Shown here in pieces: positions 13,238 through 19,047 of a stretch of DNA of 64,000 nt. The stretch is from positions 3,348,001 to 3,412,000 of the forward strand of contig NZ_CP095042.1 of the NCBI RefSeq assembly GCF_022919715.1, given 5' to 3'. The first letter of the stretch is position 1. Each line of letters begins with the position of its first letter. The position numbers and the translations under genes are program-made. Source of the stretch: Agromyces sp. H17E-10. GTDB lineage: Bacteria > Actinomycetota > Actinomycetes > Actinomycetales > Microbacteriaceae. The notes under the pieces were generated by a model. It saw only the letters and a program-made list of their open reading frames with translations, was not told where the DNA came from and did not search any database.

Positions 13238-16141
13238 ATGACTTCGCCCTCGTCGGCCTTCGATGTCGATGCCTTCGGCCGCCGCCACATCGGCACGTCC
13301 CCGAGCGACCACTCGCTCATGCTCGCCGAGCTCGGCTACGACTCGCTCGACGCGCTCATGGCCGCGGCCGTGCCGTCGTCGATCCGCATGGGCGAGGTGC
13401 TGAACTCGGCCATCCCCGCCGCGGCGACGGAGCGCGAGGCGCTCGCCGAGCTCGCCGGGCTCGCCGCGCAGAACACCGTGCGCACGCCCATGATCGGCCT
13501 CGGCTACTACGGCACGGTCACGCCCGCGGTGATCCAGCGCAACGTGCTCGAGAACCCGAGCTGGTACACGGCATACACGCCGTACCAGCCCGAGATCAGC
13601 CAGGGCCGGCTCGAGGCGCTCATCAACTTCCAGACGATGGTCGAGAACCTCACGGGCCTCGACATCGCCAACGCGTCGATGCTCGACGAGGGCACCGCCG
13701 TCGTCGAGGCGATGCTGCTCGCCCGCCGCGGCTCGAAGTCGGCCTCGAACCGCTTCGTCGTCGATGCCGACGCGCTGCCGCAGACGAAGGCGCTGCTCGT
13801 CTCGCGCGCCGAGGCCGTCGGCATCGAGCTCGTCGAGGCCGAACTCTCCGAGGGCACGGATGCCGCCGCCTTCGGCGACCACTTCGGCGTCTTCGTGCAG
13901 TACCCCGGCGCCTCGGGCCGCGTGTGGGACCCGTCGCGGGTGATCGCCGCGTCGAAGTCGCAGGGCGCACTCGCCGTCGTCGCGGCCGACCTGCTCGCGC
14001 TCGCGCTCGTCACGAGCCCCGGCGAGCTCGGCGCCGACGTCGCCGTCGGCACCTCGCAGCGCTTCGGCGTGCCGATGGGCTTCGGTGGACCGCACGCCGG
14101 CTACATGGCCGTGCGCAAGGGTCTCGAGCGACAGATGCCCGGCCGCCTCGTCGGCGTCTCGCAGGACGCCGCCGGCCACCCCGCCTACCGCCTCAGCCTG
14201 CAGGCGCGCGAGCAGCACATCCGCCGCGAGAAGGCGACCTCGAACATCTGCACCGCGCAGGTGCTGCTCGCGGTCATGGCGTCGATGTACGCCGTGTACC
14301 ACGGCCCGCGCGGCATCCGCGCGATCGCGACGCAGACCGCCGCGAAGGCGAAGCTGCTCGCCGGCTGGCTCGCAGACCTCGGCCAGCACGTCGCCCACGA
14401 CGCGTACTTCGACACGCTCGCGGTGCACGTGCCCGGGCTCGCCGAGAACGTCGTGGCCCGAGGTCGCGACCTCGGCGTGCTGCTCTGGGCCGCCGACGAG
14501 GCGACCGTGTACGTCTCCGTCGACGAGACGACGACGCTCGCCGACCTGCACCTCGTCGCGCGCGCCTTCGGCGGCCCCGACGAGCGCCCGACGACCGACA
14601 CGGCCGCCGAGCGCGTGCCGACCGAGACCGCGATCCCCGAGGCGCTGCGCCGCACGTCGGGCTACCTCGAGCACCCGGTGTTCAACACGCACCACTCCGA
14701 GACGCAGATGATGCGGTACCTCAAGCAGCTCGCCGACCGCGACTACGCGCTCGACCGCGGCATGATCCCGCTCGGCTCGTGCACGATGAAGCTCAACGCC
14801 GCCACCGAGATGCAGGCCGTCACCTGGCCCGAGTTCGCGAACCTGCACCCGTTCGCGCCCGAGGCCGACGTCGTCGGCTCGCTCGGGCTCGTCGAGCAGC
14901 TCGAGTCGTGGCTCGCCGAGGTCACCGGGTACGACACCGTCTCGCTGCAGCCGAACGCCGGCAGCCAGGGCGAGCTCGCGGGCCTCCTCGCGATCCGCGG
15001 CTACCACCGTGCCAACGGCGAGGGCGAGCGCGACGTGTGCCTCATCCCGTCGAGCGCGCACGGCACGAACGCGGCCTCGGCCGTGCTCGCGGGCATGCGC
15101 GTGGTCGTCGTCGCGACCGACGAGCTCGGCAACGTCGACCTCGACGACCTGCGCGCGAAGATCGCCGAGCACGCGGCATCCATCGCGGCCCTCATGATCA
15201 CGTACCCGTCGACGCACGGCGTGTACGAGCACGAGGTGAAGTCGATCACGCAGGCCGTGCACGACGCCGGCGGCCAGGTCTACGTCGACGGCGCGAACCT
15301 CAACGCCCTGCTCGGTTACTCGCGCTTCGGCGACTTCGGCGGCGACGTCTCGCACCTCAACCTGCACAAGACGTTCTGCATCCCGCACGGCGGAGGCGGC
15401 CCCGGCGTCGGCCCGGTCGCGGCGAAGGCGCACCTCGCCCCGTACCTGCCCGGCCACCCGATGGCGCAGCGCCCCGACCACGCGGGCGGCTTCGTGCACG
15501 GCGGCGGACCGGTCTCGGCGGCGCCGTACGGCAGCCCGTCGATCCTGCCGATCTCGTGGGCGTACGTGCGCATGATGGGCTCCGAGGGGCTCAAGCAGGC
15601 GACCGCGACGGCCGTGCTCGCGGCGAACTTCGTCGCGTCGCGCCTGCGCGAGCACTTCCCGGTGCTCTACACGGGCGAGAACGGGCTCGTCGCGCACGAG
15701 TGCATCCTCGACCTGCGCCCGCTCACGGCCGAGACCGGCGTCACGGTCGACGACGTCGCGAAGCGCCTCATCGATTACGGCTTCCACGCGCCCACCATGT
15801 CGTTCCCGGTCGCGGGCACGCTCATGGTCGAGCCGACCGAGTCGGAGGACCTCGCCGAGCTCGAGCGCTTCGTCGAGGCGATGGTCGCGATCAAGGCCGA
15901 GGCGGACGCCGTCGGCCGCGGCGAGTGGCCCGCCGACGACAACCCGCTGCGCAACGCCCCCCACACGGCCGAGTCGGTCATCGCGGGGGAGTGGGAGCAC
16001 CCCTACACGCGTGAGCAGGCCGTCTACCCGGTGCGCTCGCTCGTGCGCAACAAGTACTGGGCCCCGGTGCGGCGCATCGACCAGGCGTACGGCGACCGCA
16101 ATCTCGTGTGCGCGTGCCCGCCAGTGGAGGCCTTCGCGTAG
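13238..16141 (+). CDS. gcvP: Glycine dehydrogenase (decarboxylating), P protein
   Basis: The 967-residue PLP enzyme decarboxylates glycine and loads the methylamine on lipoyl-GcvH. It is the single-chain form, with the N-terminal half ([43 protein letters not shown]) and the C-terminal half ([30 protein letters not shown]) in one protein. The PLP lysine is K711 in [17 protein letters not shown]. Length agrees with the usual 950 residues. AAGGA lies 8 nt before the ATG. It is the last gene of the operon, and two GC-rich hairpins follow the stop. Confidence 0.97.
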
Positions 16142-16145
16142 GCAC

Positions 16146-16165
16146 GGGCGCGCGAACGCGCGCCC
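16146..16165. terminator. Hairpin between gcvP and the DUF2231 gene
   Basis: GGGCGCGCG-AA-CGCGCGCCC is a perfect 9-bp stem just after gcvP. A second imperfect stem bounded by CCTGCTC and GAGCAGG follows at about 16170-16202. Neither has a U tract. Lying between convergent genes, they could stop transcription in both directions. Confidence 0.6.
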
Positions 16166-16208
16166 TCGACCTGCTCGCGCGCACGCGCGCGCGGGAGCAG
16201 GTATCGAC

Positions 16209-16736
16209 TCAGCCCGTGAGCCCGCCCCACACGGCGCGGGCTCCCGAGTCGCCGATGAGCACGATGAGCACGAGCGTGCCCACGCCGACGACGACGGCGG
16301 CCACGGCGATCACGACGCGCACGACGCGCGCGGTGCCGGGCGAGTCCCGTCGCAGGCGCTCGTCGGCGAACCGGAACCACGCCCACTGACCCGCCGCCAC
16401 GACGAAGAGCGCGATGGCCCACGGCAGCAGCATCTCGCCGAACCCCTGATGCCGGGCGACCGCGGGGATGGGTCCGAGCAGCGCCGCGAGCGAGCGACCG
16501 GCGAGCACGGTGACCGGCACGAGCACGAGCACGAGGGCCGCCCCGAGCGCGGTGACGATGCCGAGCCGGCGCCGCGCCTGCGGCCAGAACGTGCCGAGCA
16601 GCAGGGCGAGTACCGTGAGCGGGGTGAGCACGACCACCGCGTGCACGACGAGCGGATGCAGCGGCAGCCCCGCGACCTGGATGAGGTCATCGGCGGCGAA
16701 CGGTGTGGCGAGCGGTGCGACGCGCGTGGGATCCAT
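16209..16736 (-). CDS. DUF2231-family membrane protein
   Basis: The 175-residue protein has four hydrophobic helices and the family hallmark LPLHPLVVHAVVVLTPL (HPxxxH) at the first helix. A charged loop, RFADERLRRDSPGTARVVR, precedes the last helix. DUF2231 proteins are often encoded near redox or heme-linked genes, and the paired histidines may bind a cofactor, but no function is established. I choose the ATG at 16736 because the ECF promoter at 16770-16743 ends 6 nt before it, implying a leaderless transcript; the longer upstream frame would run across the divergent promoters. It belongs to the same putative regulon as the sigma factor transcribed in the opposite direction. Confidence 0.84.
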   Translation of the reverse strand: MDPTRVAPLATPFAADDLIQVAGLPLHPLVVHAVVVLTPLTVLALLLGTFWPQARRRLGIVTALGAALVLVLVPVTVLAGRSLAALLGPIPAVARHQGFGEMLLPWAIALFVVAAGQWAWFRFADERLRRDSPGTARVVRVVIAVAAVVVGVGTLVLIVLIGDSGARAVWGGLTG

Positions 16737-16742
16737 GCCGAG

Positions 16743-16770
16743 TACACGTGCTGCGGCGCCGGCCGGTTCA
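16743..16770 (-). promoter_or_regulatory. ECF (SigL-like) promoter of the DUF2231 gene
   Basis: On the minus strand TGAACC (16770-16765), 16 bp, then CGTGTA (16748-16743). The -10 ends 6 nt before the DUF2231 ATG. It matches the TGAACC...CGT form known for SigL-type ECF promoters. Confidence 0.75.
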
Positions 16771-16783
16771 TTCCCGCCCACGG

Positions 16784-16811
16784 TGAACCGTTCGGCTCGC
16801 GCTCTCGTTCT
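16784..16811 (+). promoter_or_regulatory. ECF (SigL-like) promoter of the sigma/anti-sigma operon
   Basis: TGAACC (16784-16789), 16 bp, then CGTTCT (16806-16811), 25 nt before the sigma factor ATG. It implies autoregulation and is divergent from the promoter of the DUF2231 gene. Confidence 0.75.
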
Positions 16812-16836
16812 CCCTGCAGAGGGCAGGAGGTGAGGG

Positions 16837-17367
16837 ATGCCGCGCGACGACGATCCCCGTGACGACGACCGTCGGCTGGTCGCGCTGTACGAGGCGCACG
16901 GGCCGTCGGTCTGGCGGTACGTCGTGCACCTGACGGGCGATGCCGCAGGCGCCGACGACATCGTGCAGGAGACGTTGCTGCGCGCCTGGCGCACGCCTCG
17001 CATCCTCGCGCAGGAGCCCGCCTCCACGCGGTCGTGGATGATCACCGTCGCCCGCAACCTCGTCATCGACGAGGCCCGCAGCGCCCGGCGCCGGCACGAG
17101 GTCGACGTCGCCGAAGCTCCCGAGCCGCCCGCCCCGGCGATGCGCGACGCGACCGACGCCCTCTTCGAGAGCCTCCTGATCGAGGAGGCCCTCGTGTCGT
17201 TGACGATCGAGCATCGTGCCGTCATCGTGCACGCCTACTACGGCGGATGCAGCGTGGCCGAGGTCGCCCGGCGGCTCGGCATCCCCGAGGGCACGGTGAA
17301 GTCCAGATTGCACTACGGGCTCCGCGCGCTCCGACTCGCCCTGCAGGAGAAGGGAGTGACGCGATGA
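16837..17367 (+). CDS. ECF RNA polymerase sigma factor, SigL-like
   Basis: This 176-residue sigma-70 family protein has only regions 2 and 4. Region 2 spans about residues 12-80 (LYEAHGPSVWRYVVHLTG, ADDIVQETLLRAW, RSWMITVARNLVIDEARS). Region 4 spans about 115-172 (LVSLTIEHRAVIVHAYYGG, SVAEVARRLGIPEGTVKSRL), the latter being the -35 recognition helix-turn-helix. AGGAGG lies 6 nt before the ATG. Its stop overlaps the anti-sigma start as ATGA. The three TGAACC-N16-CGT promoters at this locus match the consensus described for mycobacterial SigL, so I call it SigL-like on promoter grounds; sequence assignment to that subgroup needs phylogeny. Confidence 0.93.
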   Translation: MPRDDDPRDDDRRLVALYEAHGPSVWRYVVHLTGDAAGADDIVQETLLRAWRTPRILAQEPASTRSWMITVARNLVIDEARSARRRHEVDVAEAPEPPAPAMRDATDALFESLLIEEALVSLTIEHRAVIVHAYYGGCSVAEVARRLGIPEGTVKSRLHYGLRALRLALQEKGVTR

Positions 17368-18080
17368 GCCCCGATCACGCGCACTTCGCGGAGTGGGACT
17401 CCGCCTACGTGCTGGGCGCGCTGTCGCCGCTCGAGCGCGCCGAGTACGAGCAGCACCTCGAGACGTGCGAGCGGTGCCGCAGGGCGGTCGCCGAGCTCGC
17501 GCCGATGCCCGGGCTGCTCGCCCGCCTCACCCCCGAACGTGCCGCGACGCTCCTCGACGACACCGGCGCAGCCGCGCCCGGGCCGCGCGAGGACCTCCTG
17601 GACGTGGTGCGGCTCGAGGACCGCCGTCGCCGCGTCCGCCGACGCCGCACCGCGTGGATCGCCGCGGCCGTCGCGGCCGTCGTCGTCGCTGCGGCGGTCG
17701 CGATACCGCTCGCGCTCGCCCGCACCGCGATCGTGACGGAGTCGGTCGCGTTCGAGCCCGTCGCCGAGGTGCCGCTCGTCGCGACGGCGAAGCTCACGCA
17801 GGTCGGGTGGGGCACGAGGATCGAGCTCGACTGCCGCTACGCCGAGATCGCGGGCGCCGAGACCGCGGGCGCCGACGGCGGGTCGACGGCCCGCTGGCCG
17901 TACGCCCTCGTCGTCGTGGGCCGCGACGGCGAGCGGACCGACGTCTCGAGCTGGCAGGCGAGCCCGGGGGCCGACGCGCGGCTGTCGGCCGGCGCTGCGC
18001 TCGATCTCGACGAGATCGCATCGCTCGAGATCCGCGCGGTCGGCAGCGACGACGTGCTCATGCGGGTCGCGGTCGACTGA
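17364..18080 (+). CDS. Zinc-type anti-sigma factor
   Basis: The 238-residue protein starts with a zinc-binding anti-sigma domain carrying the HxxxCxxC motif HLETCERC (H31, C35, C38), which in this family holds the sigma factor and can release it on thiol oxidation. One transmembrane helix follows at about residues 97-119 (TAWIAAAVAAVVVAAAVAI), then an exported domain of about 115 residues, as in RskA/RslA-type proteins. The start ATG overlaps the sigma factor stop by 4 bp, so the partners are made together. It is likely degraded or oxidised to free the sigma factor; the signal is unknown. Confidence 0.92.
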   Translation: MSPDHAHFAEWDSAYVLGALSPLERAEYEQHLETCERCRRAVAELAPMPGLLARLTPERAATLLDDTGAAAPGPREDLLDVVRLEDRRRRVRRRRTAWIAAAVAAVVVAAAVAIPLALARTAIVTESVAFEPVAEVPLVATAKLTQVGWGTRIELDCRYAEIAGAETAGADGGSTARWPYALVVVGRDGERTDVSSWQASPGADARLSAGAALDLDEIASLEIRAVGSDDVLMRVAVD

Positions 18081-18114
18081 CCCGATCTGCGGCACGACAT
18101 CCGTTCGAACCGGT

Positions 18115-18142
18115 TGAACCGTTCCGCGCCGGGCCTCGTGTT
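18115..18142 (+). promoter_or_regulatory. ECF (SigL-like) promoter of the lipoprotein gene
   Basis: TGAACC (18115-18120), 16 bp, CGTGTT (18137-18142), 48 nt before the lipoprotein ATG. The decamer TGAACCGTTC is identical to that in the sigma factor promoter. Confidence 0.75.
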
Positions 18143-18190
18143 CCGGGAAGAGCCGCGTCCGCGGCCGACGGCACGAGAGAGGGACCTCGC

Positions 18191-18703
18191 ATGAAACTGC
18201 GCATCGCAACCGGAATGGCCGCCATCGGCCTCGTCGTCGCGCTGGCCGGATGCACCGGCACCGGATCGGACTCGGGCGGGTCGATGTACGGCGAGTCCAC
18301 GCCCACCCAGTCCGAGACCCAGGCGCCGGACACCGGCGGTGCCGCCTCGGGCGCCGCACTCGCGACGGCCGACTCCTCGCTCGGCCAGATCGTCGTCGAC
18401 GGCACGGGCATGACGGTCTACATGTTCGACACCGACACCCAGGGCAGCGGCAAGAGCAGCTGCGAGGGCCAGTGCGCCACGAACTGGCCGGCCGTGACGA
18501 CCGACTCCGACGCCCCGCAGGTCGAGGGCGTCACGGGCGAGGTCGGCACGATCACGGGCGTCGACGGCTCCACCCAGGTGACGCTGAACGGATGGCCGCT
18601 CTACACCTACGCGGGCGACAGCGCCGCCGGCGACGTGAACGGCCAGGGCGTCGGCGGCGTCTGGTGGGTGCTGAGCCCCACCGGGGACAAGATCAGCGGC
18701 TGA
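18191..18703 (+). CDS. COG4315-type secreted-repeat lipoprotein
   Basis: The 170-residue protein has a lipoprotein signal ending in LVVALAGC (lipidated C21), a Ser/Thr/Gly-rich spacer of about 40 residues, and two copies of the secreted repeat: GQIVVDGTGMTVYMFDTDTQ with CEGQCATNWPAV, and TQVTLNGWPLYTYAGD with GGVWWVLSP. The SCEGQC cysteine pair is typical. The molecular function of this family is not established. A GAGAGAGGGA ribosome binding site precedes the ATG at 18191. Its own SigL-like promoter makes it the likely output of the sigma/anti-sigma pair just upstream. Confidence 0.88.
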   Translation: MKLRIATGMAAIGLVVALAGCTGTGSDSGGSMYGESTPTQSETQAPDTGGAASGAALATADSSLGQIVVDGTGMTVYMFDTDTQGSGKSSCEGQCATNWPAVTTDSDAPQVEGVTGEVGTITGVDGSTQVTLNGWPLYTYAGDSAAGDVNGQGVGGVWWVLSPTGDKISG

Positions 18704-18712
18704 CCCGGGCGA

Positions 18713-18925
18713 CTACGCGGGGCGCGGCGCCACGTGGCGGCCGCGCTCCGTGAGGTCCCGCTTCGCGGGCGCGACGCGAGCCGTCGCGTCTGCGGCGACG
18801 AGGGCGGCCCGCCGGGCCGCGACGCGCTGCTCGGCCGCGCGGACCTCGGACTCCGTCGTGCCGAAGCGGCGGTCGGCCGCGCGCGCGGCGAGGTGGCCGG
18901 CGGCGAAGGCGGCGGCGATGCTCAT
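18713..18925 (-). CDS. Small hypothetical protein, 70 residues
   Basis: A short frame encodes MSIAAAFAAGHLAARAADRR followed by a charged, probably helical segment with an Arg/Ala pattern (SEVRAAEQRVAARRAALVAA). GAGAGGA about 7 nt before the ATG supports translation. It converges on the lipoprotein gene with only 9 nt between the stops. I recognise no family. High GC content makes chance frames common here, so the call is moderate. Confidence 0.45.
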   Translation of the reverse strand: MSIAAAFAAGHLAARAADRRFGTTESEVRAAEQRVAARRAALVAADATARVAPAKRDLTERGRHVAPRPA

Positions 18926-19047
18926 GGTGCTGTCCTCTCTCGGGCCGGCTCGGCCGGCGGATGCACCCCGGAAACGAGGGGCAATCCCATGCTCGTCAGC
19001 GTGGCGGAGCCCCGGATCAGGGGACCCCCGAACGCCACCCCCGGGAG

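Follow-up and report, generated by a model that had tools for sequence, protein, structure and literature searches.

A SigL-type sigma factor module with a DUF2231 membrane protein and a COG4315-type lipoprotein as candidate outputs in Agromyces sp. H17E-10

In a 64,000-nucleotide stretch of Agromyces sp. H17E-10 (contig NZ_CP095042.1, positions 3,348,001 to 3,412,000), which is called the window here and to which the coordinates below refer, the genes of an extracytoplasmic function (ECF) sigma factor and of its anti-sigma factor lie between a divergent gene for a DUF2231 membrane protein and a downstream gene for a lipoprotein, named COG4315 from the source names of its relatives. The operon and each of the two outer genes are preceded by a site of the form TGAACC-N16-CGT, and the sigma stop codon is overlapped by the start of the anti-sigma gene. 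The features are as follows.

Ending at 16141, + strand: gcvP, which adjoins the DUF2231 gene.
16209..16736, - strand: DUF2231 membrane protein gene, 175 aa, with its ATG at 16736-16734 and LPLHPLVVH near the N-terminus.
16743..16770, - strand: predicted SigL-type promoter of the DUF2231 gene, TGAACC-N16-CGTGTA, with the start codon 9 nt after CGT.
16784..16811, + strand: predicted autoregulatory promoter of the sigma/anti-sigma operon, TGAACC-N16-CGTTCT.
16837..17367, + strand: sigL orthologue, ECF sigma factor, 176 aa (NF007227 and SigL structure match).
17364..18080, + strand: RslA-like anti-sigma factor gene, 238 aa, one hydrophobic segment (3hug_B, PF13490).
18115..18142, + strand: predicted SigL-type promoter of the lipoprotein gene, TGAACC-N16-CGTGTT.
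18191..18703, + strand: COG4315-type lipoprotein gene, 170 aa, starting with ATG at 18191, with two Lipoprotein_15 repeats (PF03640) and lipobox C21.

An earlier interpretation of the same DNA, made from its letters alone (the sequence-only reading), had proposed three such promoters and no other intergenic match in the window. All three TGAACC-N16-CGT(G/T) sites are exact, each with a 16-bp spacer, and the second statement stands as well, the only further TGAACC-N16-CGT match (23912-23888, - strand) falling inside strongly coding DNA. These four matches compare with a mean of 0.28 (standard deviation 0.49, largest 2) in 100 dinucleotide shuffles of the window. The whole genome contained 64 exact matches (29 forward and 35 reverse) and none to the same pattern read backward. 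When they were scored by codon usage trained on the window, taking a best-frame score below 1 as non-coding-looking, seven of the 64 fell in that class, namely the three locus sites and four others ending in CGTCCA, CGTTCG, CGTCGT and CGTCGG; the combination with CGT(G/T)N(T/A) left only the three at the locus. The next match by score (L095, CGTGCA, 3.5) was borderline, with a coding-like centre. The looser pattern TGAACN-N16-CGT(G/T)HH gave 87 sites in the genome versus 5 for its backward control. From the 84 outside the locus we retrieved 20 with a good -10 (some of the others fall among the 64 already tested), and 19 of these were coding. The remaining one (L238), with a poor -35 (TGAACA), a -10 of CGTGTT and an MFS-like gene 142 nt on, looked non-coding and was not counted as a regulon member. 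At the exact consensus, the predicted regulon is local in this genome.

The SigL type of the sigma factor and the HxxxCxxC motif of its partner, both proposed previously, were supported by profile searches and by comparison with the sequences of solved structures. The sigma factor scored 223.5 bits against NF007227 (PRK09645, SigL subfamily; cut-off 202), while the other sigma families stayed at or below 103 bits and under their cut-offs, with the exception of the general superfamily model. Its best solved relative was SigL of Mycobacterium tuberculosis (6dv9_F, 173 bits), and the next different sigma factor scored 60.7. The SigK-RskA pair of M. tuberculosis likewise consists of an ECF sigma factor and a membrane anti-sigma factor, but SigK was a far weaker match than SigL (60 versus 173 bits; NF007228, 85 bits against a cut-off of 226). 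The anti-sigma factor matched RslA (3hug_B, E 2.4e-14) and the zf-HC2 family (PF13490, 34.5 bits, cut-off 22.2), with the zinc motif at H31, C35 and C38, and remained below the general anti-sigma equivalog NF052375 (50 versus 100 bits). With the SigL-RslA system of M. tuberculosis, a stress-type switch familiar chiefly from mycobacteria, the locus shares the NCBIfam subfamily, the overlapping downstream gene for an HxxxCxxC anti-sigma factor and an autoregulatory site of the TGAACC-N16-CGT type. In M. tuberculosis, mpt53 is a SigL target. The SigL promoters named for that species in the portion of PMC6372665 available to us are P-sigL, P-pks10 and P-Rv1139c, and the -10 described there, with CG before it and G favoured at position '-11', is also shared. 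The outputs at our locus, in contrast to P-pks10 and P-Rv1139c, are the DUF2231 and COG4315 genes; as the sequence-only reading had it, they lie outside the described regulon as far as the promoters named in that portion go.

The expectation that the sites would be kept in related genomes was borne out. Among 60 genomes of the genus, our own included, sigL (called at E 1e-30) was present in 21, adjoining gcvP in all of them, and the site preceded sigL in 21 of 21. The motif also occurred at all 14 loci with a DUF2231 match and at all 14 with a match to the lipoprotein hidden Markov model. The sigL locus erodes in place across these congeners: the DUF2231 gene was not found at seven of the 21 loci and the divergent motif was gone from all seven; the lipoprotein gene was not found at six, and the downstream motif was gone from all six. 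In one congener (G010, locus L049), at about 1.3-1.45 kb from the sigL start, the lipoprotein frame was short (43 aa) and its upstream motif was retained. Lipoprotein_15 was detected in 15 of the 21 congeners with sigL versus none of the 39 without it, an association whose tests are inflated by linkage and shared descent.

Some of the congeners without the lipoprotein gene carry another candidate target. We scanned 12 congeners, including five of the six that have sigL and lack the lipoprotein gene, for TGAACC-N16-CGTG(G/T)(C/T), which yielded 48 sites in those five and 43 in seven with the lipoprotein; 60 of these 91 sites were scored for coding. The scan disclosed an alternative locus with motif-led promoters, comprising three genes: one for a small membrane protein that no Pfam family matched, one resembling dehydrogenases (ADH_zinc_N, below its cut-off) and one for a CDP-alcohol phosphatidyltransferase. 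Apart from this locus and the sigL loci, a few sites looked non-coding by score; in eight further stretches that were read, each site fell within at least one long open frame, and none was taken as a candidate. The small membrane protein was found in eight of the 60 congeners, motif-led in all eight, and was absent from all 14 whose lipoprotein gene is intact; its carriers were the six with sigL and no lipoprotein gene, G010 with the short frame, and G021. The phosphatidyltransferase occurred in the same eight plus G036, which is without sigL and without the motif there. On a sigL and gcvP tree of 1,101 columns, with several weakly supported nodes, the state (lipoprotein or alternative locus) changed at least four times, compared with a mean of 6.1 for shuffled labels; because of these changes, the effector state does not simply follow the descent of a single clade. 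Judging by its motif and its occurrence, the alternative locus would be driven by SigL.

To extend the comparison, 110 sigL loci were assembled, consisting of 21 from the genus, 49 from the family (29 best by score plus 20 hand-picked) and 40 hand-picked from the order and class, and TGAAC-N15..17-CGT was sought within 500 nt upstream of each domain. The motif preceded SigL at 21/21 genus, 42/49 family and 36/42 order/class matches, COG4315 at 14/14, 18/18 and 8/8 (40/40 in all), and DUF2231 at 15/15, 13/21 and 2/2 (30/38), while the in-operon control, RslA, had it at 1 of 112; the chance background is about 0.008-0.011 per 150 nt. HxxxCxxC was present in 108, and a hydrophobic segment in 109, of the 112 sampled RslA matches. 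Six of the eight DUF2231 misses (L067, L071, L073, L154, L156 and L157) were second genes behind a motif-led Rieske gene, and the other two (L070 and L074) were plain misses. COG4315 lay downstream, divergent or upstream of sigL according to lineage, each time with its own site. Other motif-led neighbours of sigL were Rieske (12/13), YceI (6/6), FMN_bind (2/2) and CHRD (1/2) genes and, at three of three order/class loci (L112, L118 and L125), a gene whose secreted product, about 211-227 aa long, matches no Pfam family. Together, these distributions suggest that SigL exchanges target genes between lineages and effectors even within one genus. As a separate observation, at one further locus (L119, genome G663) a gene resembling those of thiamine-diphosphate enzymes by eye stands directly behind TGAACC-N16-CGTGTC, downstream of rslA and 1.2 kb after the sigL start.

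We also took the COG4315 genes as the starting point. Lipoprotein_15 was sought in 299 family genomes, 55 of which were positive, and 58 genes were read upstream. By hand comparison, sigL was present in 47 of the 55 genomes with Lipoprotein_15 versus 62 of the 244 without. The site was found before 34 of the 36 COG4315 genes linked to sigL, before six of the 14 away from sigL in genomes that have it, and before one of the eight in genomes without detected sigL; the backward pattern was found before none of the 58. Of the six unlinked motif-led genes, one (G137) shared the contig of sigL at a distance of about 430 kb, and the other five were on different contigs, where linkage could not always be judged. 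In these genomes, the predicted COG4315 site tracks with sigL. The module had been described as self-contained, and this held for the present genome at the exact consensus; it failed for the system as a whole, because the site is carried by six of the 14 unlinked COG4315 genes, by genes far from sigL in seven sigL-positive congeners, and by Rieske, YceI and FMN-binding genes of other lineages.

Several observations tell against the assignment of these sites to SigL. No site was found before seven of the 49 family and six of the 42 order/class sigL matches, before two of the 36 linked COG4315 genes, or before eight of the 14 unlinked ones in sigL-positive genomes; the two residues that give M. 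tuberculosis SigL its -10 specificity differ here (H54 to T and D60 to Q); and two genomes without detected sigL, G234 and G021, keep a motif-led COG4315 gene and a motif-led alternative locus, respectively. These two genomes, the 46 first-look sigma-like protein candidates of our genome and the commonness of AAC and CGT among ECF elements (in the portion of PMC8103513 available to us) would fit another explanation, in which the sites are real promoters but are read mainly by a different ECF sigma factor whose AAC/CGT code is similar, sigL being linked to them by neighbourhood. We consider this improbable, given that the COG4315 site occurs in 40 of 50 genes of sigL-positive genomes versus one of eight in those without detected sigL, and that sigL itself is preceded by the same site. 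Moreover, "without sigL" here means no match at E 1e-30 among the scored candidates, so that a recorded absence need not always be real. In G234, an 88% complete genome whose COG4315 gene is on a 3-kb contig and whose genus includes sigL-positive members, and in G021, an assembly of about 810 contigs, sigL could have escaped detection. In G112, which is of the same genus as G234 and without sigL, the COG4315 gene was present and the motif absent.

The geometry of the sites provides further information. At all 28 motif-led DUF2231 loci, the in-frame start codon was 9 nt (23 loci) or 10 nt (5 loci) after CGT, whereas a start codon 8-11 nt after CGT was found for only 4/39 lipoprotein, 16/96 sigL, 1/12 Rieske and 1/6 YceI genes. 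This constant distance further supports the DUF2231 promoter. Since the best scaffold of the M. tuberculosis SigL structures has its +1 about 9-10 nt past CGT (our own reading of the offset from the portion of PMC6372665 available), close to the start codon, the DUF2231 mRNA is probably leaderless. A further explanation, that a short motif happened to match at the three places by chance in GC-rich DNA, could draw on the 64 exact genome matches, which are mostly inside genes. We give it next to no credit, however: sites at the same places across genera and orders contradict a chance origin, to which the empty backward control upstream of the COG4315 genes and the fixed DUF2231 distance can be added.

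The base that follows CGT differed between the two kinds of promoter. In the genus it was T in 20 of 21 sigL promoters, unlike the preference of M. tuberculosis for G, and G in 28 of 28 effector promoters. Outside the genus, G was the commonest base at sigL too (26/42 and 21/35), so that T after CGT is, in the genomes compared, a feature of the genus. The '-11' position carries the strongest specificity of M. tuberculosis SigL, for G, according to the portion of PMC6372665 available to us, and by analogy the feedback promoter of sigL may be tuned weaker than those of the effectors. No link between residue 60 of SigL and the base after CGT was supported (Q was accompanied by T in 31 cases and by G in 22).

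The two effectors had their best-named relatives in Agromyces. The DUF2231 protein passed PF09990 (33.5 bits, cut-off 26.4) and shares the LPLHPxxxH histidines with that family; H27, H32 and H96 were invariant in 56 sequences. Its AlphaFold2 model consisted of four long helices (predicted local distance difference test score, pLDDT, 88), for which Foldseek returned nothing at E 0.001 or better; the nearest hint, to cytochrome b561 (4o7g), came only at E 3.8-4.8. A second structure aligner gave generic four-helix bundles, and a sequence search of solved structures found no DUF2231 relative at E up to 1. The genus also has DUF2231 copies with higher scores at other places, and these are of a distinct type: of 13 such loci, nine lacked a SigL-type site within 3.2-3.5 kb and four lacked it within 500 nt upstream on the strand of the gene. 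The lipoprotein matched PF03640 in two stretches (109.2 bits, cut-off 24.4), and its C21 was kept in at least 90% of 59 sequences. The SCO0930 family (NF040526) also has two PF03640 repeats, a lipobox and repeats of the Yx(FWY)xxD type, but our protein is about half its length and missed the cut-off (131.5 versus 275 bits), which rules it out as a SCO0930 equivalent. Its AlphaFold2 model failed (mean pLDDT 43), and among solved structures only LpqN matched, weakly (E 0.05) and in the N-terminal part.

Taking these data together, we regard it as quite likely that the locus encodes a SigL/RslA-type ECF module with the DUF2231 and COG4315 genes as its outputs. In this model, the membrane-anchored anti-sigma factor with its zinc motif would sequester SigL until it is set free, either by oxidation at the zinc site or because the anti-sigma factor is cleaved. 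Free SigL would then read all three sites as transcription starts, transcribing its own operon from the CGTT promoter, presumably the weaker kind, and the two effectors from CGTG promoters, giving one leaderless mRNA for the four-helix DUF2231 membrane protein and a second mRNA for the COG4315 lipoprotein. Sequestration, release and transcription follow from what is described for the SigL family in the portions of PMC2877774 and PMC6372665 available to us. As to the effectors, a role in electron transfer or redox protection outside the cytoplasm may be read from the protein families involved, namely from the invariant histidines of DUF2231, the Rieske-DUF2231 pairs and the FMN_bind proteins behind the same motif.

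The signal, in turn, could be of another nature. It is quite possible, at somewhat less than an even chance, that this is a SigL system responding to proteolysis or metal limitation, in which the zinc motif is structural and the effectors serve the envelope or metal handling. SigL of M. tuberculosis is among the targets of the Rip1 protease, and growth in low iron requires it (PMC10449499, in part); a gene for a CAAX-type protease is nearby, though not motif-led; and about 48% of the class I anti-sigma factors that are bound to the membrane have a zinc motif, which may be structural in some groups (PMC7406223, in part). On the other hand, M. tuberculosis RslA gives up its zinc on oxidation, and its affinity falls about 8-fold in vitro (PMC2877774, in part); in other lineages, moreover, the site stands before Rieske and FMN_bind genes, which fits a redox theme. 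A broader version of the redox model, which we put forward tentatively and with considerable doubt, would see in SigL an ancient actinobacterial switch that controls a module for electron transfer outside the cytoplasm. In it, the conserved DUF2231 histidines would pass electrons across the membrane to exported carriers that can replace one another (COG4315, Rieske or FMN-binding lipoproteins), and these would hold the envelope in a reduced state when the RslA zinc site is oxidised. Carriers would have been swapped while the switch and its promoter code were kept, with mutually exclusive alternatives within the genus, either the COG4315 lipoprotein or the small membrane protein with its phospholipid-type locus.

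In its architecture this is an ordinary ECF system, and what distinguishes it are the firm comparative support, the new outputs, the probably leaderless effector mRNA and the effector exchange. We found almost no literature on the COG4315 and DUF2231 families: our search, which did not extend to supplements, found nothing that links DUF2231 to sigma factors and nothing on COG4315 by name or description. The conserved SigL outputs outside mycobacteria are apparently undescribed in the literature searched. A small regulon with three mappable promoters would thus give both families a first regulatory context and open the redox hypothesis to tests outside a pathogen. The system also appears to be a case of a sigma factor that retains its promoter code and exchanges its effectors within one genus.

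Three minor observations concern the surroundings. The GC-rich stretch at 16141-16205, where gcvP and the DUF2231 gene converge, resembles an inverted repeat by eye and is perhaps a two-way terminator. A 77-aa frame without Pfam match (18713-18946, - strand) is convergent with the lipoprotein gene, and similar frames were found near sigL at 15 of the 21 congener loci by tblastn at E 1e-3. Elsewhere in the same genome (L081, C1:1927089-1928136), three near-identical TGAAC-N16-CGTGCC matches lie about 510 bp apart, which suggests a 510-bp tandem repeat within a gene.

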